A program made the position numbers and the translations under genes. From positions 1,426,001 to 1,490,000 of the forward strand of contig NZ_CP083692.1 in NCBI RefSeq assembly GCF_020096995.1: a stretch of DNA of 64,000 nucleotides. Direction: 5' to 3'. Positions 11,176 through 49,457 of this stretch are shown here, in pieces. The stretch comes from Leucobacter sp. Psy1. GTDB lineage: Bacteria; Actinomycetota; Actinomycetes; Actinomycetales; Microbacteriaceae. The notes below the pieces were generated by a model. That model was given only the letters and a program-made list of their open reading frames with translations. It did no database searches and had not been told where the DNA came from. Within the stretch, counting starts at the first letter, position 1, and each line of letters starts with the position of its first letter.

Positions 11176-11185
11176 TTCTCGGATC

Positions 11186-28948: not shown

Positions 28949-28977
28949 TTGGCCGGCGCCGCCGAAGCGAGTAGACT
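28949..28977 (+). promoter_or_regulatory. Promoter of the XRE/ImmA/PIN operon
   Basis: -35 TTGGCC (28949-28954), 17-base spacer, -10 TAGACT (28972-28977). The predicted start of transcription falls in the left arm of the operator at 28976-29005. Confidence 0.5.
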
Positions 28978-29005
28978 TGAATCAAGTTCGACAACTTGAT
29001 TCAAG
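28976..29005. promoter_or_regulatory. Operator with 13-base inverted repeat, XRE autoregulation
   Basis: CTTGAATCAAGTT (28976-28988), four-base centre CGAC, then the exact complement AACTTGATTCAAG (28993-29005). Each arm also contains a near-palindrome CTTGA(A/T)TCAAG, so the site offers two adjacent dimer-binding sites 17 bases apart. It covers the end of the -10 and the transcription start, a standard position for an antitoxin-type repressor. Confidence 0.8.
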
Positions 29006-29015
29006 AGGTGAAGTG

Positions 29016-29345
29016 ATGAACGCCATGGTCGCGGCAATCGAAAACGCTCGAGCCGCCGCCGGACTCTCTCAGCGTGCGCTCGCGGATAGGACCGGGATGT
29101 CGCAAGCGACGCTCAACCGGATCCTCGCCGGAGAACGTGTCGCGAAGATGACCGAAATCATACTGATCGCCGACGCGACTGGATGCACAGTGGCCCAGCT
29201 CACCGGGAGTGCAGTTGCGGACCGCGTGCAGTGCGCGGCTCGCGCGACCGACGGTGCGTCCATGAGTTCCATGCGCCAGCGCTTGCTGCACTTCATGGAA
29301 CTCGACGCCTACCTCGACGACCACGCGATTCCGTCCGCCCGATGA
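29016..29345 (+). CDS. XRE-family helix-turn-helix protein, antitoxin-like
   Basis: 109 residues from ATG 29016, with AAGAGGTGAAG upstream. HTH of the XRE/Cro type: ARAAAGLSQRALADRTGMSQATLNRILAGERVAKMTE (residues 13-50, split), then a 50-residue C-terminal segment probably for dimerisation or partner contact. It ends in a four-base overlap with the protease gene. Likely represses the operon through the palindrome just upstream and neutralises or is cleaved by the partner protease, as in XRE/ImmA-IrrE pairs. Confidence 0.85.
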   Translation: MNAMVAAIENARAAAGLSQRALADRTGMSQATLNRILAGERVAKMTEIILIADATGCTVAQLTGSAVADRVQCAARATDGASMSSMRQRLLHFMELDAYLDDHAIPSAR

Positions 29346-30160: not shown

Positions 30161-30771
30161 GCCACCGTCCGATCATGGATGCGGGGCCGGGTATCAACTT
30201 CTTTTCGCTCAATAGGGAGCGGCTGCTGTTCTCGGCGGTCGGGCCGCTTTCTATCCCCGAGATCGTCGAACAGGAGATCTTGCGGAAGGCCCGCCGAGAG
30301 GAGCGTTTCGCCGCGGCCGAACGCGTGATCAAGAAAGTGCCCGAGCGGCTGCTCGAAGTACTTTCCGATGATGTCACAGAAGAGCTCACCGTCGCCGTCC
30401 AGCGCATTGCAGGGATGCCGTTGGGGGAGCGAGTCCGTTCGAGCAGGGATCTCGGTGAGACGATGGTGATCGCGCACGCGGTCGTCGCTGCGGAGCATGG
30501 TGAGTGCGTGCTCGTCTTGATCGATGACAGCGGAGGGCGACGGGTGGCTGCGCGAGAGCAGCGTCGCCTCAAGCGGCTTTCGGATCAGGGCAATGGCTCG
30601 GGACGCATCGACCTCATCAGTACCTTGAGTGTCCTCAAGAAGGCTGCTGGCGGCGCAGATCTCCCCGATCGTGGTTCCCTGCGCGATCTCTACGGTCGGC
30701 TCCGCAAGCTTGACGACGGGCTGGTGCCCCTCGATAGTACCGGGCTGATGGACCTTCCCTGCTGGTCCTGA
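30157..30771 (+). CDS. PIN-like domain nuclease
   Basis: 204 residues, translationally coupled to the protease (ATGA overlap). MDAGPGINFFSL carries the first PIN acid (Asp8), acidic residues at 36-40 (PEIVEQE), Glu101 in LGETMVIAHA and Asp123/Asp124 in VLVLIDD complete a PIN-type metal site. PIN nucleases are usually RNases and toxins. As third gene in an XRE/ImmA operon it is probably the effector, expressed when the repressor is cleaved. The family assignment rests on motif spacing, not on overall similarity. Confidence 0.75.
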   Translation: MSHRPIMDAGPGINFFSLNRERLLFSAVGPLSIPEIVEQEILRKARREERFAAAERVIKKVPERLLEVLSDDVTEELTVAVQRIAGMPLGERVRSSRDLGETMVIAHAVVAAEHGECVLVLIDDSGGRRVAAREQRRLKRLSDQGNGSGRIDLISTLSVLKKAAGGADLPDRGSLRDLYGRLRKLDDGLVPLDSTGLMDLPCWS

Positions 30772-30790: not shown

Positions 30791-31828
30791 CTATGCCGTG
30801 GGCCCGTCGGCGTAGATCTCGTCGAGGATCGAGTGGTCCCACATCTCTGGTGTCGCACCTTGGATGCCGAGGCGGTCGAAGAGTTCGAGGCTCTCCTGCA
30901 CCTGTTCATCCGTGTACCAGGCGAAACCGAACTGCTCGGTGGCATCCGAGAACATGATGTCGAGCTGAACCTCAGCCTGCTCCTTCTGCGTGTCGAGGTC
31001 GAGTCCGGCGTCGGGGTACTCCTCGACGACGAGCTCGGCGGCCGCAACCGGATCCTGCTGGTACCGCTGCCACCCCTGCGCGTCCCCGCGGATCAAACGA
31101 ACAATCTGATCGCGGACCGCTTCGTCGTCGAGGCTCTCGCGAAGCACGGTGTAGACCTGACTCATCGGGTTGTAGCCGAAGTCGGCGAGGAGCATCGAGT
31201 AGGCGTCAACGCCCTGGACCCGCAGGGCTACCGGCAGGTCGTTGTAAAAGCAGAAGAGTCCGTCGACCTGCCCAGCGGTGAGCACGGCGGGGTCGTACTG
31301 ACTGGGCACGTACTCGACGTCGTTCTTCGCGATGCCGTTGATGTCGAGGAACGCGTCGAGCGCGGGCACATTCGCCCCGGCGACGCCGATCTGCCTGCCA
31401 ATGAGATCCTCAGGGGACTCCAGGGGCGCGTCGCCGAGTGACAGAATCGTGTTCGCCGCCCGCTGGTACTGCGCACCGACGATGACGAGGTCGGCGCCCT
31501 CCGCGTTGGATCGAGCGACGCCGTCGCCACCCGAGATGTTCATGAGCGCTTTGCCGCTGACGGTGTTGGTGTCGCCAGCAACGTTCGGCCCGCCCGCTGC
31601 GAGCGCGACGGTGAGGTCGAGGGAGTCGAAGAACCCCTCGCTCTCGGCGAGGTAGGTGCCGCCGAACTGTACCGAGTGCGTCCAGGAGAGTTGGTAGGTG
31701 ACGTCAGCGGGACCGCCGGGGGTGCCGCCGCTGCGGCTGCACGCCGTCAGTGTGCTGAGCGCGGCGGCGCCGAGACCTACACCTAAGGTGCCAAGAAGGG
31801 TGCGGCGGGAAAGCGCAGGGGAAATCAT
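30791..31828 (-). CDS. ABC transporter substrate-binding lipoprotein, NMT1/THI5-like
   Basis: 345 residues. The signal has a twin-arginine motif (SRRTLLG, residues 7-13) and a lipobox (LTAC, Cys30), so it is a Tat-exported lipoprotein. The mature start, VTYQLSWTHSVQFGGTYLAESEGFF, and later YDPAVLTAGQVDGLFCFYND are typical of NMT1-like receptors for aromatic or pyrimidine-like ligands. No permease or ATPase adjoins; the matching ones are at 26373-28843, separated by the XRE/ImmA/PIN operon. Promoter copy B lies about 90 bases upstream. Confidence 0.85.
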   Translation of the reverse strand: MISPALSRRTLLGTLGVGLGAAALSTLTACSRSGGTPGGPADVTYQLSWTHSVQFGGTYLAESEGFFDSLDLTVALAAGGPNVAGDTNTVSGKALMNISGGDGVARSNAEGADLVIVGAQYQRAANTILSLGDAPLESPEDLIGRQIGVAGANVPALDAFLDINGIAKNDVEYVPSQYDPAVLTAGQVDGLFCFYNDLPVALRVQGVDAYSMLLADFGYNPMSQVYTVLRESLDDEAVRDQIVRLIRGDAQGWQRYQQDPVAAAELVVEEYPDAGLDLDTQKEQAEVQLDIMFSDATEQFGFAWYTDEQVQESLELFDRLGIQGATPEMWDHSILDEIYADGPTA

Positions 31829-32026: not shown

Positions 32027-33682
32027 CTATTGAGCTTGAGTATCGATGCGCCGGCGCAAGTGGGAGAGGATACTCAACGCGTCGAGGCAATCCTGATAGG
32101 TGAAGATACCTTTCTGCTCGAGGGTAACTCGTTCCTCGTGAGTGATCGGATCGCGAAAACCCGACCACAGACCCTTCGATAGCACCCTCTGAGCAGTGCG
32201 AATATTCTTCTGAGTATCGGTCGACAGCTCGAGGTCGATCCATTGCTTAATGACATCGAGTTTCGGGTTGGCATCCGCGAAAGCTCCTTCGATTATGGAA
32301 TGCTCGTTGCCGTTGATTTGAGAGAGGCTTTTGACGTCGTTCACATAGCGCTTGATTCCCTCCACAATTGCGGCATGATAATGACGGTCTTTATATTCCA
32401 TCTCGCATGCCTCCTGAATTGACGGGTGCAACTGGCGCCAGTGGAGGTCCGCGTACTCCGGTGCGATTGTCTGCAGTCCTTCGACGATTGCGCTCTGGTT
32501 CGAGTCGCTCATAGCACTATCCGGAGATATGACAGCATCCAGAACGTTGGAAACGGCGTCGGCACGAGAACGATCTCGGATCGAGCTGACCCACATCCCG
32601 GTGTCGATGTTCAAAGTCTTTTCAACACGACCCTTTTGCGCTTTCCTCCGCGACTCCCTACGGCGTCGACTGATTTCCAACAGTAGCTTTCCCAACGCGC
32701 TTCTTAACCCCTCGGGTTCGGGTAGCTCCCATGAGATCGATCTTCGATCCGTTGAGATCACGTCCTCTGATAGTTCGTCGAGATAGTCGGCATCGATGTA
32801 GCCTGTCAAATACGAAAACGCATAGCTCGATTCGGATACGCCGAAGAACTCGGGATCGTTAGCAAGTCGACCGTTCACGTAGAGAGTGATTCCACGAAGC
32901 TCCTGATGGAGTGGTTTCGCACTGGCGATGATTCTCCCGTGCAACTGGTCCATCAGAGGATCGATATTCGAATCGGAGAGATCGCTTGGGATTGCCCATT
33001 CGGACTCCTTCTCGATGCTGGAGTAACGCAGTTCGCGCGTGACTTCCATGATCCTGTTGTCTTCCGACTGAAGACTGAGTTTGAAGTCATCGTCTACGTA
33101 GTTAAACAATCTCGAGAGACTGTTCGCCAGAGAATCTGTGTTTACCGGAGTCTTACGTTTCAGAGATGAGATCATCACTGAAGTTCCATGGGCCTCTCGA
33201 TCACCCGGCTCTTGCCAGGAGCTCGGCTCGTATTCTCCATCAGCGCTCAACATCGCGTTCCAGTCGAGCTCGACCACCTGGTATGCGGTGGTATCTCGTC
33301 TTTTGGTTCTGATGGTCACGCGTATGCCGATTCCGAAGAGGGCAAGTTTTCCAAGACCTTTCTTTCCCGCCACCCTACGTTTGCCTGACTCAGATTTCCT
33401 CTCACCTTCTTTGACCCGATTGCGGCCGATGCGTAGGTACTTTTCTTGTAGATCGTCCTTGCTCATGCCATGTCCGTCATCGACGACGGTGACCGATGGC
33501 TCTGGATGGCTGATCAACTCGATCGAAACCCGAGTGGCGTCTGCGTCGTAGGCATTCGCTACGAGCTCGGCCAGCGCGTTCGGGAGATGCGAGTACATCT
33601 TGAATCCGAGATGCTCGATGGTCAGCGGATCGAATGTCAACTTCAACTCATGAACCTTTCTCGCGGGAGTGCACATCTCCAT
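32027..33682 (-). CDS. GHKL (HSP90-like) ATPase with C-terminal Ymh (TIGR02391) domain
   Basis: 551 residues. The N-terminus has the Bergerat ATP site: ALAELVANAYDADA (N box), VVDDGHGM (G1) and GKKGLGKLALFGIG (G2). The C-terminal 130 residues (from about EACEMEYKDRHYHAAIVEGIK to LSHLRRRID) match the Ymh-type domain, found in abortive-infection proteins. Homologues often begin MKLTFDPLTIEHLG, so a TTG at 33646, eight bases after AGAAAGG, is a plausible alternative start. Base composition is distinctly lower in GC than in the core genes. First gene of the defence island, same strand as dcm; probably an energy-dependent sensor or effector. Confidence 0.82.
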   Translation of the reverse strand: MEMCTPARKVHELKLTFDPLTIEHLGFKMYSHLPNALAELVANAYDADATRVSIELISHPEPSVTVVDDGHGMSKDDLQEKYLRIGRNRVKEGERKSESGKRRVAGKKGLGKLALFGIGIRVTIRTKRRDTTAYQVVELDWNAMLSADGEYEPSSWQEPGDREAHGTSVMISSLKRKTPVNTDSLANSLSRLFNYVDDDFKLSLQSEDNRIMEVTRELRYSSIEKESEWAIPSDLSDSNIDPLMDQLHGRIIASAKPLHQELRGITLYVNGRLANDPEFFGVSESSYAFSYLTGYIDADYLDELSEDVISTDRRSISWELPEPEGLRSALGKLLLEISRRRRESRRKAQKGRVEKTLNIDTGMWVSSIRDRSRADAVSNVLDAVISPDSAMSDSNQSAIVEGLQTIAPEYADLHWRQLHPSIQEACEMEYKDRHYHAAIVEGIKRYVNDVKSLSQINGNEHSIIEGAFADANPKLDVIKQWIDLELSTDTQKNIRTAQRVLSKGLWSGFRDPITHEERVTLEQKGIFTYQDCLDALSILSHLRRRIDTQAQ

Positions 33683-33772
33683 GAGGTGATGCGTGAGTTA
33701 GGGTCTATGAGTCATGTATAGCCCAGAACGTGGCAGTAGTACGGTGCCGTGCCGGGGAGGGCGTGATCAAAC

Positions 33773-34867
33773 TTAGATCGCATGCAGCAGCTGAAGGGCT
33801 ATTGCCCGGCCCAACGGAATCGGGACGGCGTTCCCTATCTGCCGAGCGATGGCCGTACGCGAACCCACGAATCGATGATCATCAGAGAACCCTTGAAGCC
33901 GTGCTGCTTCGTAGTGGGTGATTGCACGATGTGCGGTCGGGTGGAGGTAACGACCCTTCTCGGGCTTGAAGAATTCGGTGCGGATTGTCACCGATGGCCG
34001 GTCGGCGTAGAGCCGCCCCATCACATCTCCAGAACCTGACTTGTGCTTGCGCCAGCATGGTGCGAGCAGTTCATCGGGGAGATCGAAGCGATTGCCACCG
34101 ACTGGAATCGCGGCAAAACGGTCGAGGGACAGCTGCCGATAGGATCGACTCCAATGAAGCTCCCTAGGTGCGAAGCTTCCTGAGAGGGCTCGGCCTTTGC
34201 GTTCGATGGATCGGGCATCTGCAAGATCGTCCATGTCAGGGACCAGCGGTACGTCGGCGAACTCATCGCCCACTGTTCGATACTTTTGCAAACCGTCTAC
34301 TGCAGAGGGACCGTGGGTGATCTCTGGAAAGCCCGGGAACGAGATATCTCGTTGATGCCCGATGAGTACGGCGCGTTTCCGGGACTGTGCAGCACCGTAG
34401 TCCGCGGCGTTCAGGATGCGGTGCTGGAAAGTGTAGTCTTCGAGAATCCCTCCGGTATCGGTAGCGAGTTCGAACTGCTCGAATTGCGCAGAGTTCGCGA
34501 ACGCTGCGACATTCTCGACCACGAAATACTTCGGCTTCACGCGAATCAAGGCGGCTGCGTACTGCTCCCAGAGGGAGTTCCGTTCGTCCTGCTCGTCCTG
34601 CTTGCCAAGTGTGGAGAACCCCTGGCATGGTGGGCCGCCGATGACAACGTCAGCTGAATCGGGTACGTGCTCAGACTCGAGCCAATCCTGAATCGATCCT
34701 GTGTACACGATCCCCTCGCCGAACGTGGCTTCGAAGGAGGCTGCTGCGGCAGTATCCATCTCTACTGCGGCGATAGTACGGAACTGTTTTGACGCAGCAT
34801 GGAAACCTGCGGTCAGACCGCCTGCGCCCGCGAACAAGTCGAGTATTCGGATGTCACGCTGCTCCAT
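33773..34867 (-). CDS. dcm: DNA (cytosine-5-)-methyltransferase
   Basis: 364 residues with ordered m5C methylase motifs: FAGAGGLTAG (motif I, 12-21), GGPPCQGFS with catalytic Cys81 (motif IV), VVENVAAF (motif VI, 116-123), QSRKRAVLIG (motif VIII, 161-170) and RQIGNAVP (motif X, near the C-terminus). The target-recognition segment between VIII and IX is about 100 residues. Transfers methyl from AdoMet to a cytosine in its recognition sequence. Pairs functionally with vsr at 48745-49170, which repairs T:G mismatches from deaminated m5C. Divergent from the plus-strand defence operon. Confidence 0.95.
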   Translation of the reverse strand: MEQRDIRILDLFAGAGGLTAGFHAASKQFRTIAAVEMDTAAAASFEATFGEGIVYTGSIQDWLESEHVPDSADVVIGGPPCQGFSTLGKQDEQDERNSLWEQYAAALIRVKPKYFVVENVAAFANSAQFEQFELATDTGGILEDYTFQHRILNAADYGAAQSRKRAVLIGHQRDISFPGFPEITHGPSAVDGLQKYRTVGDEFADVPLVPDMDDLADARSIERKGRALSGSFAPRELHWSRSYRQLSLDRFAAIPVGGNRFDLPDELLAPCWRKHKSGSGDVMGRLYADRPSVTIRTEFFKPEKGRYLHPTAHRAITHYEAARLQGFSDDHRFVGSRTAIARQIGNAVPIPLGRAIALQLLHAI

Positions 34868-34999
34868 GATTTATCAGGTTAGCCGGCACCTCGGACATCT
34901 CCAAGCTGGCGCGCGGGCGATCGTGCGCCCGGAATGTCCGAGTTCCGTGCTTAGCTGGGATCGGCAGAGGTAGCGAGATGGCGAAAGGGATATCGAGAG
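34868..34999. promoter_or_regulatory. Divergent promoter region of the defence island
   Basis: 132 bases separate dcm (minus) from the large plus-strand array and must hold both promoters. Two near-identical stretches, GCGAAAGGGATATCGAGAG and GCGACAGGATATCGAGC, occur at 34981-35017, the second inside the first codons of the next gene; they could be a repeated operator. No clear -35/-10 pair was identified. Confidence 0.4.
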
Positions 35000-36919
35000 A
35001 TGGCGACAGGATATCGAGCCGTACTTCGGCTCGACGATGATCAGGATGCGGTGCGCATCGTTGAAGAGCAGCTGCGCTCCTGGTTGAGTGCGAAAGCCTC
35101 TGGCAGGCGCGCGACTTTGGAAACAATCGGATGGGAAGGCCAGGGGGTGCATCGGCTTGGGCCGGATTCGAAGCTATCTGTCGTGGAGGAGGACGACGGA
35201 CGGGATGCGAGCCGTCGACGTCTCTACCGGCTCGTTGAGGAGAACAACGGCAGGACCTGGACCGTTTCCCTCTTTGTCGCTTCCCTTCCAGAAGCACGTC
35301 GTCATCGGCAGACCATTGTCGTCGAAGCCGAGGTTGAGGGTGCGGGCGGGGACCAAGCGGTAAGAGAGCTTGGCACACCTCGTATCGTTCCCATGATCCT
35401 CGAGTCGATTGGAGCTCATGACAATGAAACTCCGTTGAAGGGGCACCCCGTCGTGATCAGACGAGGTGACGTGGAGCAGGTCATCCGCGCCATCGAAGAC
35501 GAGGAGCGCACGGTCTCCGTCGTCGTTGCGGGCTCGCTGGGCGAGGAGAGTGATCAACGCTGGACGGAGGCGATCGCCAGCCTTACCAAGGAGAGCGTGG
35601 GTATAGCAGCGACGTTCGTCGTCTATGCCGATGCAATGGAGGAGCTGCAGGAGCGACTGCCGGCGAGCCATGCCGTAGACGCCGGTCGGGTCAGAACCTT
35701 CTCGCCTCATGTCGACCTTGACGATGTATCGGACGCGACAAGGCACAGGCGGCTTGGGCCAGCCACGTTCACCCGATCGCTTCGGGGAACGAGAGTCGGC
35801 AGGCCGCTGCAGATGCGCCATGCCGAATCAACGCGCCGTCGTCTGATCGAGCTGGAGCTTCCTGCCGACGTAGTAAGGAACCGGAATGTCCTCCGTCAGG
35901 CCGAGACCAGGGTTCTGAGGGATGCCGCGGTGACTGCACGAGTAGCCGAAGAGGAACGGCTTCAGCGCAGTGGAGCAGGGCCTTCGCAGGTACGGCTCGT
36001 CACCTCGAACCCTGTTCGGGAAGCGCAACCCGATGCTTCCGCACCCGACGGTTCCCTATTCGCCTCGCTCACGGCATTGTGGGAACGAGCTGCGCAGTCG
36101 TTCGCAAGGTGGCTGACAGAGGAGGAGCCGAGCCCTTCTCGTCTCGATGAACTGGACCGATTCATCGAACGGAAGAGCGCGGAAGGAGCTGTTGCACAGG
36201 AGCAGCTCGACGAACGCGAGCTCAAAGTCCTGGAGCTCGAGGACGAACTAACGCAGTTGCACAGACATCTTGAGGACCTCGAGATCGATCGCGCGCAATC
36301 AGAACAGGATATCGTCTCACAGCAGGAGGAACTCGCGACGCTCAGGCAGCGCATCGCGGCGAGCGCGCAACCGCAGGACGCATATGTTGCGCCCAACGAC
36401 GATGTCTGGGGCGCGCCGGAATCCGTAGAGGAGCTTCTGAACCGCATCACGCCGGGACAAGATGAGCACCCTGTGTTCAAACGCGTCGTCTTCACTGGCG
36501 ACGAATCGACCGCCCTCGAAATCGATCGTCGCTATGCCCTCGGCACATATGCGCCCTCGCTTTGGCAGTTCATTCGTGTGCTCTGCGACTATGCGGAGTT
36601 GCGCGAATCCGGAGAATTCACCGGCAGTGTGCATATGTATCTCAACGATGATCGCGTGATCGGCACGAAATGCAGCCCTAATCGTCACGCAAGCACCGAG
36701 AGCGAGACTGTGCTGACAAATACGAAGTGGAGAGAGGAGCGCGTGTTGCCGGTTCCGAAGGCAGTCAGTTCAGATGGGCTGATGCTCATGGATGCACACT
36801 TCAAGCCGCCGCATCGGGATACCTTCGCTCCTCGCATGCACTACTACGACGACGTCTCGGGTACGGGAAAGATCTACATCGGCTACATGGGGAAGCACCT
36901 GACGAACACCAAAAGCTGA
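35000..36919 (+). CDS. Unrecognised 639-residue coiled-coil protein of the defence island
   Basis: Start ATG 35000 with AAAGGG upstream. The N-terminal 240 residues look like a mixed alpha/beta domain (YRLVEENNGRTWTVSLFVA, then VSVVVAGSLGEESDQ). The middle is Arg-rich. Residues about 390-450 are a coiled coil (ELKVLELEDELTQLHRHLEDL). The last 150 form a compact domain (YALGTYAPSLWQFIRVLCDYAEL, ending GTGKIYIGYMGKHL). I do not recognise any part. It is the first gene of the plus-strand array, 82 bases from the DUF1156 methylase, so it probably belongs to that system, perhaps as recognition or scaffold subunit. Confidence 0.7.
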   Translation: MATGYRAVLRLDDDQDAVRIVEEQLRSWLSAKASGRRATLETIGWEGQGVHRLGPDSKLSVVEEDDGRDASRRRLYRLVEENNGRTWTVSLFVASLPEARRHRQTIVVEAEVEGAGGDQAVRELGTPRIVPMILESIGAHDNETPLKGHPVVIRRGDVEQVIRAIEDEERTVSVVVAGSLGEESDQRWTEAIASLTKESVGIAATFVVYADAMEELQERLPASHAVDAGRVRTFSPHVDLDDVSDATRHRRLGPATFTRSLRGTRVGRPLQMRHAESTRRRLIELELPADVVRNRNVLRQAETRVLRDAAVTARVAEEERLQRSGAGPSQVRLVTSNPVREAQPDASAPDGSLFASLTALWERAAQSFARWLTEEEPSPSRLDELDRFIERKSAEGAVAQEQLDERELKVLELEDELTQLHRHLEDLEIDRAQSEQDIVSQQEELATLRQRIAASAQPQDAYVAPNDDVWGAPESVEELLNRITPGQDEHPVFKRVVFTGDESTALEIDRRYALGTYAPSLWQFIRVLCDYAELRESGEFTGSVHMYLNDDRVIGTKCSPNRHASTESETVLTNTKWREERVLPVPKAVSSDGLMLMDAHFKPPHRDTFAPRMHYYDDVSGTGKIYIGYMGKHLTNTKS

Positions 36920-37001
36920 GGGCTCCGGTACGGCATGATTGGCGGCGTGCGCACTGTATAGACTCGATGGCAATTGCAACACGTGGCGGAAGTAGAGGCT
37001 A

Positions 37002-39836
37002 TTGGCGAAGAAAAAGCTGATCGAGGTGGCGTTGCCGCTTGACGCGATCAATGCGCAATCGGCGCGGGAGAAGTCCATCCGTCACGGACATCCTTCGACC
37101 TTGCACCTATGGTGGTCCAGAAAGCCCCTTGCAACAGCACGAGCCGTGCTTTTTGCGCAGCTCGTCGATGACCCTTCGGCTCGTGAGGACGAATATCGAG
37201 CCGAAGCACAGCAACGCGGCGAGAGAGATATCGAACGCTACGTCGAGCAACGGGTCGAAGCGGAACGAGAACGTCTCTTCGATCTCATTACTCGGATGGT
37301 GAACTGGGACAATCTAGGAAACGAACGCCTTCTTGGCGAGGCAAGGGATGAAATCTTACGATCCACCGGTGGTGCGCCGCCCGCCATCCTGGACCCCTTT
37401 GCTGGTGGTGGGTCTATTCCGCTGGAAGCTCAACGGCTGGGACTCCAAGTGCATGCCTCCGACCTGAACCCGGTCGCAGTATTGATCAATAAAGCGCTGG
37501 TTGAGATTCCACCAAAGTTTTCGGGGCAGTCGCCTGTCTTTCCTTTTGCTGCAGCGGAAAGCAACTCCTGGCCGAAGAGTACGGGGCTCGCTGAAGATGT
37601 CAAGAATTACGGGAACTGGGTTCAGCAGGAAGCGAAGAGGCGAGTAGGGCACCTCTACCCGAAAGCCACCCTCGAAGATGGGAGCGAAGCAGAGGTTATT
37701 GCGTGGATTTGGGCCCGCACTATCCCATGCCCTAACCCTGCCTGTGGAATTAAAATGCCCCTCGTAACCTCTTGGTGGATTAGTAAGAAGAAGGGGCGTG
37801 AGGTTTTTGTAGTCCCCACGGTGCGTGAAGGCGGGGTTGAGTACTCGATTGGAACTGACTCGCGTCTTGGCCCACCGAAAGCTGATGATGGTACAGTCTC
37901 CGGTCGCCGGGGCGCTAAGTGTATTTCCTGTGGAGCACATGCAGGAATTGACTACATTCGGGAGCAGGGAGAGTTGCAGGCTATGGGGGCGGATCTCATG
38001 GCGGTCGTGGCTGGTGGGAACCGGCGGCGACTCTACCTTCCGCCGACAGCGGCTCATCAGGAAGCAGCGAATGTCTCGAGGCCGTCTGACGCCCCTTCTG
38101 GGGCAATGGCTGACAATCCCCGGTGGTTTTCTCCACCCGCATATGGAATGAAGCAGTTTGCAGATGTTTTCACTCTTAGACAACTCACGACACTGACAGT
38201 CTTTAGCGACCTCGTGGGAGAAGCCCGCGAGAGAATCTTTAACGATGCTATGGAATCGGACAGTTTGAAGCTTATAGCTGATTCGTCCGAGTCAAGCGCT
38301 CGCGCATACGCAGACGCTGTTGCGACTTATCTTGGGCTTTGGATCGGCAGGATAGCAAACCGCTCTTCAAGCTTGAGCGTCTGGAATAGGCCTGCTGAGA
38401 AAATCGAGCAGCTCTTTGCCCGGCACGCGATACCTATGTTGTGGGAGTTCCCTGAGGCCAACCTGTTCTCCCAGTCAACAGGTAACGCTCTTGGTCAGCT
38501 GGGCTATCTAGTCGACGCTATTGCCGCAGTGCCGGGTGGTGAACCCGCGACAGTAACGCAGGCTGACGCGGCTTCTATGGACTATTCGAATGCACTGATC
38601 TCTACGGATCCCCCTTACTACGACAGCATCGGGTACTCAGATCTCTCGGATTTCTTTTACGTATGGTTCCGCAGGTCGATGCGTGACTTTCACCCGTCGC
38701 TGCTAAGTACGTTGCTTGTTCCTAAAGCGGAAGAGCTTGTCGCCAATCCGTATCGGCATGGCGGGAAAGTTGAGGCGAAGGACTTCTTTGAAACGGGTTT
38801 TGAGCAAGTATTCCAGAGGGCTCGGAAAGTTGCCTTGGATGATTTTCCGATCACTGTCTACTACGCGTTCAAACAGTCTGAGGTTGACAAGGTCGGGAAA
38901 TCCTCTGTGGGTTGGGAGACGATCTTGAGTAGTATGATCCGCGCGGGGTGGCAGATTACGGCCACTTGGCCTGTGCGTTCTGAGCGCGCGGGGCGGATGA
39001 ATGGTAACGGTGTTAATGCGCTCGCCTCCTCGATCGTGCTCGCATTGCGCCCGCGGCCGAAGAACGCGCAGGCCATCGAACGTCGTAGCTTCTCCGCTGA
39101 ACTGAGATCCACGCTGCCCGAAGCGTTGCGTGCACTGCAGCAGGGGAGCGTCGCGCCGGTAGATCTCGCTCAGGCCGCTATCGGTCCAGGCATGGCCGTA
39201 TACTCGAAGTATTCCGAGGTGATCGAATCCGACGGATCGAGCATGCCCGTGCGAGAGGCCTTGCGGCAGATCAACGCCGTGCTCGACGAAGTCGTCTCCG
39301 AACAGGAGGGCGAGTTCGACGCCGACACCCGTTGGTGCATCGCCTGGTACGAGAGCCACGGTTTCGACGAGGCGCTCTACGGCGAGGCCGAGACGCTCGC
39401 TAACGCGAAGAACGCCTCGATCGACGGGCTGCGCCGATCCGGTGTGCTCCGCTCCGGCGGCGGCAAGGTCGCACTGCTCGCTCCGGGTGAGCTGCCTGAA
39501 GGGTACGATCCGGCGAAGGACGACCGCATCAGTCTTTGGGAGGTTGTGCTGCACCTCGCGCGCGCTCTCGACGACGAGCGCGGCGGTCTCGATGCCGCGG
39601 GCCGGATCCTGCAGCGGGCCGAGGCCCGCGGGATCGACGGAGCCGCCGCCCATCAGCTCTCGTACCTGCTCCATCAGATTAGCGAGAAGAAGGGGCGCAC
39701 CGCAGCGCAGATCCTTTTCAACGATGTGGCGGCATCCTGGCCGGAGATCCGAGCCGCCGCGCGTGCTGCCGAGAAAGAGGCGGCCCCTGCGGCCGTTTCG
39801 ACCCAACTCGACTTCGATCTGCTCGAGGAGGTCTGA
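37002..39836 (+). CDS. DUF1156-family DNA amino-methyltransferase
   Basis: 944 residues from a TTG at 37002 (GAGG six bases before). The N-terminus (HPSTLHLWWSRKPLATARAVL) is the DUF1156 signature. AdoMet motif I is DPFAGGGS (131-138) and the catalytic motif IV is DPPYYD (536-541), as in N6-adenine/N4-cytosine methylases. Cys243, Cys248, Cys307 and Cys310 form a likely zinc ribbon. The C-terminal 270 residues are helical. Bases 37,300-39,000 are clearly poorer in GC than the remainder, with a switch near residue 670. In known anti-phage loci this family is paired with DUF499 proteins, as here. Confidence 0.9.
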   Translation: MAKKKLIEVALPLDAINAQSAREKSIRHGHPSTLHLWWSRKPLATARAVLFAQLVDDPSAREDEYRAEAQQRGERDIERYVEQRVEAERERLFDLITRMVNWDNLGNERLLGEARDEILRSTGGAPPAILDPFAGGGSIPLEAQRLGLQVHASDLNPVAVLINKALVEIPPKFSGQSPVFPFAAAESNSWPKSTGLAEDVKNYGNWVQQEAKRRVGHLYPKATLEDGSEAEVIAWIWARTIPCPNPACGIKMPLVTSWWISKKKGREVFVVPTVREGGVEYSIGTDSRLGPPKADDGTVSGRRGAKCISCGAHAGIDYIREQGELQAMGADLMAVVAGGNRRRLYLPPTAAHQEAANVSRPSDAPSGAMADNPRWFSPPAYGMKQFADVFTLRQLTTLTVFSDLVGEARERIFNDAMESDSLKLIADSSESSARAYADAVATYLGLWIGRIANRSSSLSVWNRPAEKIEQLFARHAIPMLWEFPEANLFSQSTGNALGQLGYLVDAIAAVPGGEPATVTQADAASMDYSNALISTDPPYYDSIGYSDLSDFFYVWFRRSMRDFHPSLLSTLLVPKAEELVANPYRHGGKVEAKDFFETGFEQVFQRARKVALDDFPITVYYAFKQSEVDKVGKSSVGWETILSSMIRAGWQITATWPVRSERAGRMNGNGVNALASSIVLALRPRPKNAQAIERRSFSAELRSTLPEALRALQQGSVAPVDLAQAAIGPGMAVYSKYSEVIESDGSSMPVREALRQINAVLDEVVSEQEGEFDADTRWCIAWYESHGFDEALYGEAETLANAKNASIDGLRRSGVLRSGGGKVALLAPGELPEGYDPAKDDRISLWEVVLHLARALDDERGGLDAAGRILQRAEARGIDGAAAHQLSYLLHQISEKKGRTAAQILFNDVAASWPEIRAAARAAEKEAAPAAVSTQLDFDLLEEV

Positions 39837-39838
39837 AC

Positions 39839-42800
39839 ATGGCGATCAGCAACAAGGAGCGCGTGGGCCGCGCACTGGAGCAACTGGGATCGGCTCTGGG
39901 GCCGTTCGTCGAAGAGGTGCTCAGGCCCCACGTCTCTTTGGGCCTCGACTGGACGGCGATCCTGAAGGCGAAGGACGGCGATAGTCGCGATGGACGCGAC
40001 TATGATCCCGCTGACGTGCAGATCCAGTTGCGCGCAGTGACCGAACGCCTCGGCTCCCTCGGCTTTCCGTTCGGAGAGCGACTCTCTCGCGGCGAACAGA
40101 ACCTCGCCGGCGAGATGCGCGAGGTGCGCAACAGATGGGCGCACGATCCCAAGCCGTTCAGCGCCGACGATACCTATCGTGCGCTGGACACCTGCGAGCG
40201 CCTGCTGCGCGCCATCGGTGCACCGACAGAAGCCGACGCAGTGCGCCGTATGCGTGCAGATGCTCAGCGAGCCACCTACGCGGAGGAGACCCGGCGTGAT
40301 ATCCGCGCGGCGGTCTCCTCGATGCCTGACCTGGCAGACGCCGAACTGACACCCTGGCGGGAGGTGCTGTCGCCGCACCAGGACATCGCAGCCGGGAACT
40401 TCGCGCGTGCGGAGTTCGCAGCCGACCTGCATCAGGTCGCTGCTGGAGAAGCCTCGCCCGAGTACGGCGACCCGATCCAGTTCTTCCAGCGCACGTACCT
40501 CACCGAGGGGCTGAAGACGCTGCTGACGATGAGTGCCAAGCGCATCTTCGGCAATGCCAACGCCCAATCGGTCATCAACCTGCAGACGACGTTCGGCGGC
40601 GGCAAGACCCACTCCATGCTGGCCGCATGGCACCTCTTCAGCGGTCGACCGCTCGACGTTTACCCGCAACAGGTGCAGGATCTGCTCGGTGCGGACGGAA
40701 CCGTCGCGCTCGAACGCGAGGTGAAACGGGTCGCCATCGTCGGCAACGAGATCGCTCCGGGGCAGCCGACGACGAAGCCCGACGGCACCGTGGTGAACAC
40801 CCTTTGGGGTGAGCTCGGCTGGCAATTGGGCGGCGCAGAGGGTTACGCGATCCTCGCCGACGCCGACCGCACCGGCACCAACCCGGGCGAGGCGTTGCGC
40901 ACACTCATCGCACGCTGCTCGCCGGCGCTGATCCTGATCGACGAATGGGTCGCGTACGCTCGTGGACTCTACGGCCGCGACGATCTGGTAGGCGGCACAT
41001 TCGATACCCAGTTCACCTTCGCGCAGCAGCTGACGGCAGCTGTGCAGTCGGTGCCAGGTGCTCTGCTCCTTGTCTCCATCCCCGCATCCGACGTGCGTTT
41101 TGACGACGAGACCGAAGCTCCGACCGGAGCGGATCTCGAGATCGGCGGCGCGAACGGTCGTGCCGCCCTGCAGCGTCTGCAGCACGTGGTCTCCCGCGTC
41201 GCGCACAACTGGACGCCGGCATCGAGCGGCGAGTCCTTCGAGATCGTGCGACGCCGACTCTTCACTGAGCCAGATGCCGCGGGCCGTCGAAAGATCGATG
41301 CCACCGTGCGCCGATTCGCAGACTACTACCGCGCTCAAACGGGTGAGTTACCGCCGGAGACCCGCCAGATGGAGTACGAGGCGAGACTTCGTGCGGCCTA
41401 CCCGATTCATCCGGAGCTCTTCGACCGTCTCTACGGCGACTGGTCGGCACTCGAGCGCTTCCAACGCACTCGCGGTGTGCTGCGCATGATGAGCGCGGTA
41501 GTGCACTCGCTGCACGCCTCCGGGGATGATGCGCCGTTGATCATGCCGGGATCGATGCCCCTCGATGACCCGGCAGTGCGCGACGAGGTGACCGCCTACC
41601 TCGACGATGCCTGGCGCAGCATCATCGAGACAGATATCGACGGCGAGAACGCGGCACCGATTCTAATCGATAAGGAGCGGCCGCTGTTCGGACGCCGAGC
41701 GCTCACCCGACGCATCGCTCGTGCTCTATTCCTCGGTTCCGCGGCGACGCTCGACAGCGGGCACAAGGGTATTGAACGTCAACGGGTCTTCCTCGGTGTG
41801 GCAATGCCGGGAGACAGCATCGGCAACTTCGGTTCGGCGCTTCAGATGCTTTCTGACAGGGCGACCTACTTCTACTCCGAAGGCAGCCGCTACTGGTACG
41901 ACCGTCAGCCCTCGGTCAACCGGATGGTCACCGAACGTGCGCAGGCGCTCGATATCGAGGATGTGTATGCGAGGGCTGTGGCGCTTCTGCGCGGGGCCGT
42001 CGGTTCGGCGCCCGAGTTCTCCTCGATTGTCGTCGCACCCGAAGCGACTTCCGATGTGGTGGAAGCGGACGCGGTGCGGCTCGTCGTGCTGCACCCGCGT
42101 CACACCTTCGCCGCGAAGAGCAGGGAGAGTGCAGGCTGGCGGTTCGCGGATGAGCTTTTCCGTCGCAGAGGGAGCGCCGCACGGCAGAACGCCAACACTC
42201 TCGTGATGCTCGGGGCTGACGAGAACCGCTGGGCAGAGGCAGAAGATTCGCTACGCACTCACATGGCATGGGCCGCGATCGTCTCCGGGGTGCGCGAGTT
42301 CGATCTCCTGCAGAGCCAGATTGAGCATGCCCGCAGACGTGAAGCTGAAACTCGAGCCATCGTCGATCAGCGGCTCGCCTCCGCCTGGATCTGGGCGGCT
42401 TTCCCCGAGCAGTCGGACGGGGCTCAGCCGCCTTCGCTCACAACGATGAAGGTCGAGGGAGACGACCGCCGCCTCGCGGTGCGTGCCGGGCTGCGCCTCG
42501 GCCGTGATGACGTGATCTACACGAACACCTCGCCACTCGCGCTGTGGCTCGTGTTCAACGGACACCTGCGCAGCCGGTGGAACCGCGGATACCTCTCCGT
42601 GGGCGAGCTCTGGCAGTACCATCTGCAGTATCCATACATGCCGCGTCTCAAGGATCGGGGTGTGCTCCTTGATGCGATCCGGTCGGTGATGACCGATGCT
42701 GGGTGGTCGGAGCGGGGATTCGCGCTCGCGGACGATTATGACGACGAGACAGGCGACTTCATCGGCCTCCGGGTGCCGTTCGAGGTCGATTCCGCCGGTG

Positions 42801-43231
42801 TCGTCGACGATTCAACCCTGCTGGTGGCACCGCGACTGGCGGAGGAGCAGCTGGCCCGGAGCAGGGCTGCTGCTTTGGCTGCAGCTTCCGTTGTCGCCGA
42901 TCCCGATGACGAGCCCCTGATCGATATGGGTATCGGGCGGGGCACCGGGGCGCTGCCTGCAGTGCATCCATCGGCCCCGCCCAGCCGGATCCAGAACGCG
43001 CGCTTCAGCGGCGCGGTGGATCTCAGGCCGCGGGGTGATCTCAGGGCGCAGTTGATCGAGATCGTGGATGAGGTCCTCGTGCACCTGCAGAACGCCGACC
43101 CCGACACCTTCGAGATCAGAATGTCGGTAGATGCCGACAAGATGGCGGGGTTCGACTCGGATACTGTGCGTACGGTTTCCGAGAACTCACGCCATCTCGG
43201 GATTTCACCGGGACGCTTCACGGAGGGCTGA
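39839..43231 (+). CDS. DUF499 ATPase with N-terminal Swt1-like HEPN domain
   Basis: 1130 residues. Residues 1-130 resemble the Swt1-family HEPN domain, including RNRWAH (97-102 as R-x4-H), the HEPN RNase motif. Walker A GGGKTHS (253-259, preceded by INLQTTFG) and Walker B ALILIDEWVA mark the DUF499 AAA-like core. The remaining 700 residues are the DUF499 C-terminal region, with an extended helical tail. It starts two bases after the methylase stop. DUF499/DUF1156 pairs are the conserved core of HMA-type (helicase-methylase-ATPase) anti-phage systems. Function here: ATP-driven partner of the methylase, possibly with RNase activity. Confidence 0.9.
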   Translation: MAISNKERVGRALEQLGSALGPFVEEVLRPHVSLGLDWTAILKAKDGDSRDGRDYDPADVQIQLRAVTERLGSLGFPFGERLSRGEQNLAGEMREVRNRWAHDPKPFSADDTYRALDTCERLLRAIGAPTEADAVRRMRADAQRATYAEETRRDIRAAVSSMPDLADAELTPWREVLSPHQDIAAGNFARAEFAADLHQVAAGEASPEYGDPIQFFQRTYLTEGLKTLLTMSAKRIFGNANAQSVINLQTTFGGGKTHSMLAAWHLFSGRPLDVYPQQVQDLLGADGTVALEREVKRVAIVGNEIAPGQPTTKPDGTVVNTLWGELGWQLGGAEGYAILADADRTGTNPGEALRTLIARCSPALILIDEWVAYARGLYGRDDLVGGTFDTQFTFAQQLTAAVQSVPGALLLVSIPASDVRFDDETEAPTGADLEIGGANGRAALQRLQHVVSRVAHNWTPASSGESFEIVRRRLFTEPDAAGRRKIDATVRRFADYYRAQTGELPPETRQMEYEARLRAAYPIHPELFDRLYGDWSALERFQRTRGVLRMMSAVVHSLHASGDDAPLIMPGSMPLDDPAVRDEVTAYLDDAWRSIIETDIDGENAAPILIDKERPLFGRRALTRRIARALFLGSAATLDSGHKGIERQRVFLGVAMPGDSIGNFGSALQMLSDRATYFYSEGSRYWYDRQPSVNRMVTERAQALDIEDVYARAVALLRGAVGSAPEFSSIVVAPEATSDVVEADAVRLVVLHPRHTFAAKSRESAGWRFADELFRRRGSAARQNANTLVMLGADENRWAEAEDSLRTHMAWAAIVSGVREFDLLQSQIEHARRREAETRAIVDQRLASAWIWAAFPEQSDGAQPPSLTTMKVEGDDRRLAVRAGLRLGRDDVIYTNTSPLALWLVFNGHLRSRWNRGYLSVGELWQYHLQYPYMPRLKDRGVLLDAIRSVMTDAGWSERGFALADDYDDETGDFIGLRVPFEVDSAGVVDDSTLLVAPRLAEEQLARSRAAALAAASVVADPDDEPLIDMGIGRGTGALPAVHPSAPPSRIQNARFSGAVDLRPRGDLRAQLIEIVDEVLVHLQNADPDTFEIRMSVDADKMAGFDSDTVRTVSENSRHLGISPGRFTEG

Positions 43232-43236
43232 TTCGC

Positions 43237-44763
43237 ATGGAGAGCATCGACGAGGTCGGGTATAAGGAGGTTCCTCCGGATCCGAGCATCGCCGATGCCG
43301 TAGGACGGCACCATTCGCTCGCCACGGCGGTAGCAGACCTCGTCGACAACAGCATTGATGCCGAAGCGGCGCGCGTGCACATCCGTTTCATGTCGGAGAA
43401 CGGGTTCGTGCGAGGTCTGCGAGTCATTGACGACGGCCGGGGTATGAGTTCCGCGGATATGGATCGAGCCATGACCTTCGGCGGTCGGCGCGCATACGCT
43501 CCTGGTGATCTCGGAAACTTCGGACTCGGCTTGAAGGCGGCGTCCCTCAGCCAGGCCGATCAGCTCGACGTCTACACACGGGCGCTCGGCAGCTCGGTGT
43601 TTGCAGGGAGACGGATCCTCGCCGGCCGTGCGACGCGGGTGGTCGAGCTCGGCGCGGCAGGCCTGACTGGACTCTTCGGTGCGACCGCTGCGCAGATTCC
43701 GGGTGGCCCGGTCGCGCACGGCACGATTGTGGAATGGCGCGACGTGCGCACTTTCCTCAGTTCTCCTAGCGAAGAGGAACGCCGAGCGTGGCTCGAGGAC
43801 ACCGTCGAGTCGTTGCGCGCTCACCTCGGGCTCGTGTTGCACCGGATCCTGTCGCGCGGAGACGTCACGATCACGATCGATGAGTTCGATTCCACGTGTG
43901 AGATGGCAGGGCCTGCGCGGCGAGTGGATCCGATCGACCCTTTCCGCGCTCCAGGCGGTATATGGCTGCACTCATCCGAGCTGCGGGGATCGTTGCCCGA
44001 GGGCGACTTCGTGCTGTCGGCCGCGATCTGGCCGGCATCCGGGAGAAGCTCGCCGGAGTTCAGGCTCTTCGGACTGCCGGGCTCGCGATCGCAGGGGTTC
44101 TTCATCTACCGTCATGACCGTCTGCTGCAGGCCGGCGGTTGGAACGGCGTGGTGCACGGTGGACGGGAGATGGAGTTCGCGCGGGTCGTCGTGGAGATCG
44201 ATGCAGCTCTGGCCTCGCATACGACTATCAACCCCGAGAAGTCGGGAGTGGAATTCGATTCCGATCTGAGGGCCGCTATCGACGCGGCGGTCTCCGAAGG
44301 CGGCACGACGTTCAGGGACTACCTCGCCGAGGCCGAGCAGGCCTCAGCTGCCTCGCGTCGACGTACTCGGAGACCGATCATGCTTTCCGAGGTACGCCGC
44401 GGTCTCAGCCCCGAGCTCCGGGATACGCTCGCCGATTCGGTCGTGTTCTCGGAGCACGGTCCCATCGAGATCCGCTGGAAGTTGATGCGCGGAGGCACCT
44501 TCGTGGAAGTCGACCTAGAACACCGCACTCTTTGGCTCAATACGCAGCACCGCCGGGCTCTGGGAGCGCTCGCTGGCGAGGCCGACGACCTGCCGCTTTT
44601 TAAGATGCTGCTCCTGCTGCTCTACTCGAGGTTCTTCGAGGGGGCCATGCTGGGAGCCCGCGAGAAGAACGAACTGCAGGTATGGCAGGAACTGATCGAC
44701 GCAGCGCTCGACGAGGAGTTGGAACGTCGATCCTATGGAGAGGAACCGAGTAGTGGACGATGA
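43237..44763 (+). CDS. MORC/MutL-type GHKL ATPase
   Basis: 508 residues. Bergerat ATP-binding fold: ATAVADLVDNSIDAEA (N box, Asn38), RVIDDGRGM (G1, 62-70), FGGRRAY and GNFGLGLKAASLS (G2, 93-105), the order seen in MutL and MORC proteins. The rest contains an S5-like domain and ends in Glu/Leu helices. It begins five bases after the DUF499 stop (GGAGG upstream). Prokaryotic MORC-like ATPases of this type have been described in predicted restriction systems with Z1 helicases and Vsr-type nucleases, which is the context here. Distinct from the GHKL-Ymh protein at 32027-33682. Confidence 0.88.
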   Translation: MESIDEVGYKEVPPDPSIADAVGRHHSLATAVADLVDNSIDAEAARVHIRFMSENGFVRGLRVIDDGRGMSSADMDRAMTFGGRRAYAPGDLGNFGLGLKAASLSQADQLDVYTRALGSSVFAGRRILAGRATRVVELGAAGLTGLFGATAAQIPGGPVAHGTIVEWRDVRTFLSSPSEEERRAWLEDTVESLRAHLGLVLHRILSRGDVTITIDEFDSTCEMAGPARRVDPIDPFRAPGGIWLHSSELRGSLPEGDFVLSAAIWPASGRSSPEFRLFGLPGSRSQGFFIYRHDRLLQAGGWNGVVHGGREMEFARVVVEIDAALASHTTINPEKSGVEFDSDLRAAIDAAVSEGGTTFRDYLAEAEQASAASRRRTRRPIMLSEVRRGLSPELRDTLADSVVFSEHGPIEIRWKLMRGGTFVEVDLEHRTLWLNTQHRRALGALAGEADDLPLFKMLLLLLYSRFFEGAMLGAREKNELQVWQELIDAALDEELERRSYGEEPSSGR

Positions 44764-45748
44764 GTCTAACCGTGTGATGACTCCGGAGACCCTCGAGCAG
44801 TACGTGCGCGCCACCGTGCCGACGCGGCATCCTCTCTCGGAATCGCCGGTCTGCGTGCTGATCATCGAGCCCGACAGTCGTCGTTTGAAGCTCCGGACCC
44901 CGGCCACGAATTCCTATCCTGAACTCGGTTCGTACGACCGGCTTTCGTTCGATGTGATGGAGGAACCGGGCGAGGATGGCGTCTGGTTCGAGCTCGGCAT
45001 CGACGTCGACGGAATGGCTTACGAGGGGTACTCCGTCATCATGTCGGTGGTCGATCAGCTCGAAGCCGGTCGACCATTCCGCCACTCCGTCGAGGATGCC
45101 CTCGCGAGCTTTCGGGAGCTGTTAGCGAAACGTCGGAAGCTCAGCGAGGAACAAGAGACCGGATTGTTCGGAGAGCTCGGCCTGTTCGCTCATCTCGTCG
45201 GACGGATAGGGGAAGAAGCGGCCACGGCAGCCTGGCTCGGTCCGGAGCACGAAGAGCATGACTTCGTGCTCCCTGAATTCGACGCCGAAGTGAAGACCAC
45301 GACATCCGAAGGTCGTATCCACGTGATCGGCAGTGCCACGCAGCTCTCGAGATCCCCTGGACGGCCGCTGTACCTCGTCTCGATCCAGGTGACAGCCGCA
45401 GGTGCTTCGACTGAAGGCGAGACGCTGCCGGATCGTGTTCGTCGGGTTCGCGGACTTCTGGATCGGAGTCGGCGCTTGTACGATGAGCGACTCCGTTCGA
45501 TCGGTTGGGAACCGAGTGCGGCTGAGGATCTGTATACGCGCAGATTCATCGACAGAAGTGTGCCCAGAGCATATGCCGTGACGGACCATTTCCCGGCGAT
45601 CGACCACGAGGGGATTGCCTCGATCATCGAGCGGCCGGAACTCGTCGTAGGTCTGGTCTACCGTATCGACGTGACAGGTCTGGAAGCGGCGGAGCCACCG
45701 ACGGTCATAGAAGGATTCTGCGAGAGAGGGAAGCGCAATGGTTCGTGA
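44735..45748 (+). CDS. PD-(D/E)XK motif protein, DUF4420 family
   Basis: 337 residues if started at ATG 44735. A GTG at 44753, nine bases after GGAGAGG, is a good alternative and would shorten the overlap with the GHKL gene. The nuclease core is visible: GLFGELGLF with Glu147, then HDF (Asp176) and AEVKTT (Glu185-x-Lys187), the PD-(D/E)xK arrangement of restriction endonucleases. DUF4420 proteins occur with Z1 and GHKL partners in this class of locus. It is the most likely DNA-cleaving subunit. Overlaps the next gene by 11 bases. Confidence 0.85.
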   Translation: MERNRVVDDESNRVMTPETLEQYVRATVPTRHPLSESPVCVLIIEPDSRRLKLRTPATNSYPELGSYDRLSFDVMEEPGEDGVWFELGIDVDGMAYEGYSVIMSVVDQLEAGRPFRHSVEDALASFRELLAKRRKLSEEQETGLFGELGLFAHLVGRIGEEAATAAWLGPEHEEHDFVLPEFDAEVKTTTSEGRIHVIGSATQLSRSPGRPLYLVSIQVTAAGASTEGETLPDRVRRVRGLLDRSRRLYDERLRSIGWEPSAAEDLYTRRFIDRSVPRAYAVTDHFPAIDHEGIASIIERPELVVGLVYRIDVTGLEAAEPPTVIEGFCERGKRNGS

Positions 45749-48740
45749 GGATGAATACACCCGGGCGATCGTCTCGACGTTGAGGGGCATGTCAGATTTC
45801 GGTCCCGAGGACTTTCTCGAGCTGGTAGCGCATCGGCTTTCCAAATCGGGTAAGACGATCGATGAGTTCGAGCTCGTCCGGGTACTCACCGGTGACGATG
45901 TGAACTCCAGGGAACATACCGACTTCCGCATCGCACTCGCCCGTTGGGACGCCGAGTCCGAGCCGGAATGGTCGGGAGACACGCCACCGCGGACACGGGA
46001 GCGTCGTTCGAAGGTGCTTGATCTGCTCGGGTTCTCCGAGGATGCGGCTGAGCAGATCAATGGAGTCCATCCGGCCTATTTCGAGACTGACGTCGTCATC
46101 GCGGACCCTGATTGGAGTCCCTGGTACACACCCGAACGGCAGCGGGCGCATCGCTTCTACTGGAATGCCTACTCCGGTGTGCTCGGGGATAAACTCGATG
46201 CTTCTTCGCTGGCCTCCGTCGATTCCGTGACTACCGACATCGTTTCGCGTCTCGCCGACCCTGCTGCGAAGGAGCCGTATCAGTCGAAGGGGCTGGTCGT
46301 CGGGCACGTGCAGAGCGGGAAGACTGCGAACTTTACGGGTGTGATCGCGAAAGCGATCGACGCCGGGTATCGGCTCGTCATCGTGCTGACGGGCACGGTG
46401 GAGCTGCTCCGCGCGCAGACTCAGCGCCGCCTCGACATGGAACTGATCGGCAAGGAGAACATCCTCGGGGGGAGGGACGAGAACGATCCGACCGCGGTGT
46501 CAGATATCGACTACGTGAGCGATGGTGACAGCGACTGGCTCCTCGGGAGGTTCGTCGACCATGGAGTGGATTTCGGAATCGAACCCGATGTTCCTGCTAT
46601 CCGCAGACTCACAGGTAAGGCTTACGATTACAAGCGGCTCGCGGCCGGGCTCGATGCCCTCGACTTCCGCAGCGGGAATGAGCTGAGGAACCCTCGGCTT
46701 CCCGTTTGGGACGCCGAGAACCTCTACAGCACGGATGTGCGGATCGCCGTCGTGAAGAAGAACAAGTCAGTCCTCACGAAGCTTGTGCAGGACCTCAAGA
46801 ACGTTCGCGCGCGGCTCGACGAGATCCCGGTGCTCATCGTGGACGATGAAGCCGACCAGGCTTCTGTGAACACGATCAATCCCGCACGGCAGAAGTCACC
46901 CGATGAGACTGAACGCACCGCGATCAACGCTCTGCTCGCGGAACTGCTGGGAGAGCTCAAGCGCAGCCAGTATGTCGGATATACCGCTACGCCCTTCGCA
47001 AACGTCTTCGTTTCGCCCGATGATTCCGAGGACATCTTCCCGAAGGACTTCATCATCAGTCTAAATCCTCCGCCAGCGTACATGGGAGGAACGAGTTTCC
47101 ACGATCTCGAGCCGGTGGACGAGGAGTATCGCGGTGACCCGGGGTTCTCGAATGAGGCGGCATTCGTGCGGAACCTCGAAGCGGAATCCGAGGATGATTC
47201 TCCCGAGGAGCTGCGCAGCGCCTTGGACGCATTCGTGTTGAGCGGCGCGATCAAGCTCTGGAGAGCGGGAAACGGGCATCGTGTGAAGGTCGACCACCAC
47301 ACGATGCTTGTTCATGAAACGGTGAAGCAGGCAGATCATAAGATCCTCGCCACGGCGATTAGGCGGGAATGGGCTTCAGCCGGCTATTCGTCTCCGTCGG
47401 GTCTCGCGCGACTCCGGAGTCTTTACGAGACCGACTTTCAGCCAGTGTCGGCGTCGCGGGACTGGGAGGCGCCTATGCCGACAGCGTTCGAGGACTTGCG
47501 GCCGCACATCGGTGCAGCCCTCGACAAGATCATGATGCTGAAGGACCCGGTCGTCGTGGTGAACGGCGACAAGGACAACGAGTATGAGCAGATCGACTTC
47601 GATAAGGCGGACATCTGGCGAATTCTCGTCGGCGGGACGAAGCTGAGCCGAGGATTCACTGTCGAGGGCCTCACCATCACTTACTACCGTCGTCGAGCAC
47701 AGGCTGCCGACAGCCTGATGCAGATGGGACGTTGGTTCGGCTATCGGCCTGGGTATCGTGACCTCGTGAGGTTGTATGTCGCACGCCGCGCTATCGGGCC
47801 ACGGGGCAAAGCCTTAGACCTGTACGAAGCCTTTCAGGCGATCATCGAAGATGAAGAGGAATTCCGAGCGCAGCTGCGCACGTTTTCAGAGGTGACAGAG
47901 GAGGGGGAGCCCGTGCTCCGCCCGATCGATGTGCCTCCCATGGTGTTCCAGCAGCTGCCCTGGCTCACCCCGACCAGCCGGAACAAGATGTACAACGCCG
48001 AAATCGGTTTCATGGGTGAAGGCGGGAAGCTCAAAGACTTTCCGCGCCAGCCTTTGCGGGGAAAGGGGGAGAATAACCGGCGGCATTTCACAGCGGTGCG
48101 TGGCTGGTTGGATCGCTTGAGCTCTCCGACGAAGTTCGGATATTACGACTCCGTGACTGATAAGCCAGGCGAGTTCGACGCGCGCACTGCGATCGTGTCG
48201 GCGGATGAGATGTTGAAAGCGCTCTCGGATTTCGAGTGGGTCGAAGGCTTCGATTTCTCACCGACAATTGCGATGCTGCAGCAAGCCATGGGCGAGGGAG
48301 GACTCGAGGATTGGGCCGTGATGGTTCCCTACCTGGGCAAGCATCCGGTGCTGAGGGAAGTCGATGGAGTCGATATCCCCCTGCTGAAGAGAACACGACG
48401 AGGAGGGACCCGAGGCGGTTTCTCGGGAAGCTCGTTCAGACAACGCGATGCGGTCGAGCGCATCGCCGGCAACATGACGAGAATACATGCAGGTGCAGAA
48501 GCGGAAGCTCTGTACGCGCCAACGCGAGGCTCCATGCTGCTGACGTTCGCGGCGGATCCTGTTGCGACTCAGGAAGATAGAGATCCGCGCAACATGCCTG
48601 ACGAAGTGAAGCCTGAGGACGTGGCTACTCTCTTCTCCCTGGTGATCCCCGAATCGGTTGCGCCGCGTGGACGAATCGGATTCCGCGTACGCGATGAAGG
48701 GCGGCGGAAGTCCGCGATTGTGCCGCGGAAGGATATCTAG
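45738..48740 (+). CDS. Z1-domain superfamily II helicase-like ATPase
   Basis: 1000 residues. Walker A GHVQSGKT (189-196) followed by ANFTGVIAKAIDAGYRLVIVLTG is the Z1 family opening; LIVDDEADQAS is the DExx motif II; YVGYTATPFANVF is motif III (TAT); QMGRWFGYRPGYRDLVRLY is motif VI with the arginine finger. Z1 ATPases are found in restriction-like loci beside GHKL ATPases and DUF4420 nucleases. Likely the translocating motor. Starts within the preceding gene and ends four bases before vsr. It may supply the helicase that HMA-type loci carry and this one otherwise lacks. Confidence 0.92.
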   Translation: MVREDEYTRAIVSTLRGMSDFGPEDFLELVAHRLSKSGKTIDEFELVRVLTGDDVNSREHTDFRIALARWDAESEPEWSGDTPPRTRERRSKVLDLLGFSEDAAEQINGVHPAYFETDVVIADPDWSPWYTPERQRAHRFYWNAYSGVLGDKLDASSLASVDSVTTDIVSRLADPAAKEPYQSKGLVVGHVQSGKTANFTGVIAKAIDAGYRLVIVLTGTVELLRAQTQRRLDMELIGKENILGGRDENDPTAVSDIDYVSDGDSDWLLGRFVDHGVDFGIEPDVPAIRRLTGKAYDYKRLAAGLDALDFRSGNELRNPRLPVWDAENLYSTDVRIAVVKKNKSVLTKLVQDLKNVRARLDEIPVLIVDDEADQASVNTINPARQKSPDETERTAINALLAELLGELKRSQYVGYTATPFANVFVSPDDSEDIFPKDFIISLNPPPAYMGGTSFHDLEPVDEEYRGDPGFSNEAAFVRNLEAESEDDSPEELRSALDAFVLSGAIKLWRAGNGHRVKVDHHTMLVHETVKQADHKILATAIRREWASAGYSSPSGLARLRSLYETDFQPVSASRDWEAPMPTAFEDLRPHIGAALDKIMMLKDPVVVVNGDKDNEYEQIDFDKADIWRILVGGTKLSRGFTVEGLTITYYRRRAQAADSLMQMGRWFGYRPGYRDLVRLYVARRAIGPRGKALDLYEAFQAIIEDEEEFRAQLRTFSEVTEEGEPVLRPIDVPPMVFQQLPWLTPTSRNKMYNAEIGFMGEGGKLKDFPRQPLRGKGENNRRHFTAVRGWLDRLSSPTKFGYYDSVTDKPGEFDARTAIVSADEMLKALSDFEWVEGFDFSPTIAMLQQAMGEGGLEDWAVMVPYLGKHPVLREVDGVDIPLLKRTRRGGTRGGFSGSSFRQRDAVERIAGNMTRIHAGAEAEALYAPTRGSMLLTFAADPVATQEDRDPRNMPDEVKPEDVATLFSLVIPESVAPRGRIGFRVRDEGRRKSAIVPRKDI

Positions 48741-48744
48741 GGTG

Positions 48745-49170
48745 ATGGTTCTGGGGCGTACCGGCTGGGCGAGCACGCCCGGTACAGCAAAGTCGATGCG
48801 CTCCAATCGGCGTAAGGATACAAAGCCGGAACTTGCGATCCGGAAGATTCTTCACCGGCGCGGGTTTCGCTATCGCGTCGATTTCGCCCCGCTGGCGGAA
48901 CATAAACGGCGACGTGCCGACATCGTCTTCACGAGGCAGAAGATCGCAGTATTCATCGACGGCTGCTTCTGGCATGGCTGCCCCGAACATGCGACCTACC
49001 CGAAGAGTAACAAGGACTACTGGTTGCCCAAGCTTGCGCGGAACATTGAGCGCGATCGGGAGACCGACACCGTTCTGTGTGAAGCGGGTTGGAATGTGAT
49101 CCGGATCTGGGAGCACGTCGTACCTGAGAAGGCGGCAAGGCTGATCCTGGATGCAATCGCCGGTGACTGA
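48745..49170 (+). CDS. vsr: Very-short-patch-repair endonuclease Vsr
   Basis: 141 residues from ATG 48745 (GTG at 48742 is also possible). MRSNRRKDTKPELAIRKILH is the family opening, then RRADIVFTRQKIAVFIDGCFWHGCPEHATYPKSNKDYW, with the catalytic Asp (ADIVF) and the zinc-site FWHGCP. Nicks 5' to T in T:G mismatches created by deamination of 5-methylcytosine, guarding against mutation by the m5C methylase at 33773-34867. In the MORC/Z1 locus type it is a standard last gene. Length is normal for Vsr. Confidence 0.95.
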   Translation: MVLGRTGWASTPGTAKSMRSNRRKDTKPELAIRKILHRRGFRYRVDFAPLAEHKRRRADIVFTRQKIAVFIDGCFWHGCPEHATYPKSNKDYWLPKLARNIERDRETDTVLCEAGWNVIRIWEHVVPEKAARLILDAIAGD

Positions 49171-49192: not shown

Positions 49193-49457
49193 GTACCCCG
49201 CTCCATCACCAGAATGGTCACCAGCAACCCTCCCGAGGTCATCAAATTGGCTGGCATCTGCCGGTAACGACCGGTAACCCGATGCCATGAGAACCGCAGA
49301 AACACGCGGTGTTTCGCTAGGTTTTGGCGGGGAGACGATTCTTTCAGGAGTCCTCAGTTGTTCTTGGTTTGAGTCGTTCCTCTGTAGTCCCTGTAAGACT
49401 GCGTCGATGGACGTTGATTCAGGCCAGCCCTCAGCGGTGTCTCCCACGCGACCTCCG

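Follow-up and report, generated by a model that had tools for sequence, protein, structure and literature searches.

Type-1 BREX-related (BR) systems, for which Hma is another name (PMC12839542, PMC8565338), comprise a DUF1156 amino-methylase (HmaB), a DUF499 ATPase, often with an N-terminal HEPN domain (HmaC), and a Swi2/Snf2 helicase, usually with a nuclease domain (HmaA). PMC12839542 counts the helicase among the three constant parts of DUF499-centred systems, PMC3710099 gives a distinct helicase as typical of them, and PMC7641849 describes the COG1743-DUF499-SWI2/SNF2 arrangement. MORC/paraMORC operons are covered in PMC2292703 and PMC8011034. Here we describe a locus in a 64,000-nucleotide window of the Leucobacter sp. 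Psy1 genome (NZ_CP083692.1, positions 1,426,001 to 1,490,000) that is predicted to be an anti-virus operon related to BREX, probably with a swapped effector: it has the methylase and the ATPase without their usual helicase.

The Hma half shares its gene order with Type-1 BR systems and matches the HmaB and HmaC models over their full length. HmaB (37002-39836, + strand; 1062 bits to the PADLOC model, DUF1156) carries a DPPY motif and, from its predicted class, would methylate N6-adenine or N4-cytosine. HmaC (39839-43231, + strand; 845 bits) contains an N-terminal Swt1-type HEPN domain with an Rx4H motif (HEPN_Swt1, 95 bits), followed by the DUF499 AAA+ ATPase; by analogy with PMC12839542, its C-terminus may be an RRM-like domain. 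The absence of the usual helicase, suspected in an earlier note made from the sequence alone, is borne out: neither the operon nor the genome encodes HmaA, the best match being 36.5 bits to the helicase of locus L032. A Pfam scan of ten proteins (the nine locus products and a nearby GmrSD-type protein) gave no DUF3780 or HKD-helicase match of the Type-2 BR kind, and neither PADLOC nor Pfam gave a match to PglZ of Type-3 BR, whose fast-evolving iSTAND was not sought further.

The remaining genes resemble MORC-type restriction operons, which combine a GHKL ATPase, a superfamily 2 helicase with the signature D(T)hhQXuRhFG, a restriction endonuclease-fold nuclease, a 5-methylcytosine (m5C) methylase and Vsr. 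The paraMORC-type GHKL ATPase (43237-44763, + strand) matches HATPase_c_3, and its predicted structure (pLDDT 88.9) resembles MutL, MORC and SMCHD1 ATPases, with SMCHD1, MutL and MORC2/3 among the top PDB matches. It is followed on the + strand by a PD-(D/E)XK nuclease (44735-45748; Pfam DUF4420, 117.6 bits), a Z1 ATPase frame (45738-48740) and a Vsr-type endonuclease (48658-49170, with ATG at 48745 as a possible start; Pfam Vsr, TIGR00632 131.7 bits), while the m5C methylase (33773-34867, - strand; Pfam DNA_methylase, dcm) is divergent from the operon. The helicase signature reads DSLMQMGRWFG, with S in place of T. Unlike in MORC-type operons, HmaB and HmaC are present in addition, immediately 5' of the GHKL gene and nearly overlapping. 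In the proposed mechanism, the HmaB-HmaC pair would work with the MORC-like ATPase, the nuclease and a different helicase in HmaA's stead.

The locus also encodes proteins resembling MzaB, MzaC and MzaD (PADLOC and NCBIfam MzaB-E models). These matches are partial, scoring 106, 293 and 77 bits against NCBIfam equivalog cut-offs of 850, 1500 and 420, and PADLOC and Pfam detected no MzaE (AIPR) in the nine gene products. On plasmid p2MP of Arthrobacter sp. 68b, unlike in the window, HmaB-HmaC is replaced in the slot preceding GHKL by a TmtA/sacsin-like protein whose C-terminal domain is of the HmaC type (L052, 8443-11733).

The nine consecutive frames and domains listed in the earlier note were all confirmed (frame list; PADLOC, Pfam and NCBIfam profiles), and its suggestion of an undescribed hybrid gains support: the operon is probably a real, undescribed variant, since other genomes keep the same arrangement. 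Within the stretches read, 14 hybrids including the window's were found, all with HmaB (DPPY in every copy), HmaC (Rx4H, Walker A and Walker B in every copy), GHKL and the DUF4420 nuclease (E-(V/I)-K in every copy). Vsr lies near eight of them and the m5C methylase close to ten (nine at 51-100% identity, one at 32%); the helicase signature has T in 12 of the other 13 hybrids and A in one. The window's is the only HmaC clade without an HmaA helicase. The HmaC closest to the window's own (79%) is that of genome G1118, in which an insertion with a transposase-like frame (L262, about 7500-8650) interrupts the GHKL gene. Decayed HmaB and/or HmaC remnants lie upstream of GHKL in L088 (8023-8440), L089 (7287-7700), L090, L109 and L114.

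The MutL-like GHKL fold, the helicase and the membership of Vsr in a mismatch endonuclease family would also suit a DNA repair or chromosome-maintenance cluster. This reading is very improbable, as the operon is patchy (among ten same-genus genomes in the family draw, only the window's own carries it), its tree order differs from that of the host families, and the families to which the two halves belong are described in PMC12839542 and PMC2292703 as systems of defence or restriction. The genome is a single 3.25 Mb contig, and the host family is actinobacterial, also including Agromyces allii and Cryobacterium.

No description of the composite was found in the open-licence literature searched: PMC12839542 has the helicase as core, and a text search of it gave no mention of MORC, Vsr, DUF4420, GHKL or MZA, while the passages covered of PMC8011034 lack DUF499 and DUF1156. 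Since HmaB and HmaC persist in this clade with a MORC-type set in the helicase's place, the effector appears replaceable, and the clade offers a natural experiment on which partners HmaC recruits. Judging from their models, defence-finding tools requiring HmaA or MzaE would probably miss the operon. It also places a MORC-like ATPase beside defined nucleases in bacteria, a setting useful for learning how MORC proteins act on DNA.

Two further genes are accessory. GHKL-Ymh (32027-33682, - strand), in which a paraMORC-type HATPase is joined to a Ymh domain of the HEPN family (Pfam HATPase_c_3, Hypoth_Ymh), matches the BbrUII/HgiDII restriction enzyme family partially (193 of 550 bits) and occurs in three of the 14 hybrids. 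The 639-residue protein (35000-36919, + strand), whose middle is coiled-coil and whose C-terminal part is conserved, matches PADLOC HEC-07 and NsnC weakly, and its structure prediction is unusable (pLDDT 40); relatives lie near four hybrids, one as a C-terminal piece only, and near one canonical HMA locus, L211. A possible intrinsic terminator downstream of Vsr (49299-49315, + strand) comes from a pattern scan that returned 15 such sites against 9.7 +/- 3.3 in shuffles.

Proteins of about 660-690 residues with a sigma-70 region-4-like stretch (L100, 6461-8509; L159, 6374-8446; L240, 12449-14437; weak mutual similarity, E 1e-4) lie immediately 5' of GHKL in a Rhodococcus/Gordonia group and in the m5C-HmaB gap of the Ornithinimicrobium hybrid. 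In Agromyces allii (G694), the composite is adjoined by a second paraMORC-type GHKL (L086, about 2571-5906, + strand; 36% to the window's), fused to sigma-70 regions 1.2, 2, 3 and 4 as read by Pfam, and by ZacB/ZacC-type defence genes (L095, 14468-19509, - strand); near it lies a 2166-residue protein with Swt1-type HEPN, DUF4011, helicase and MTES_1575 nuclease domains (L223, 1012-7512, + strand).

Elsewhere in the window are the GmrSD-type (type IV) restriction protein (52762-54825, + strand), whose C-terminus weakly matches the DNA-binding domain of O6-methylguanine methyltransferase (E 0.0024), and, flanked by transport genes, an XRE regulator, an ImmA/IrrE-type peptidase and a 204-residue frame without Pfam match (28977-30771, + strand). 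An NMT1/THI5-like gene (30791-31828) and two TPP riboswitches (6989-7080, + strand; 11086-11181, - strand) are also present.
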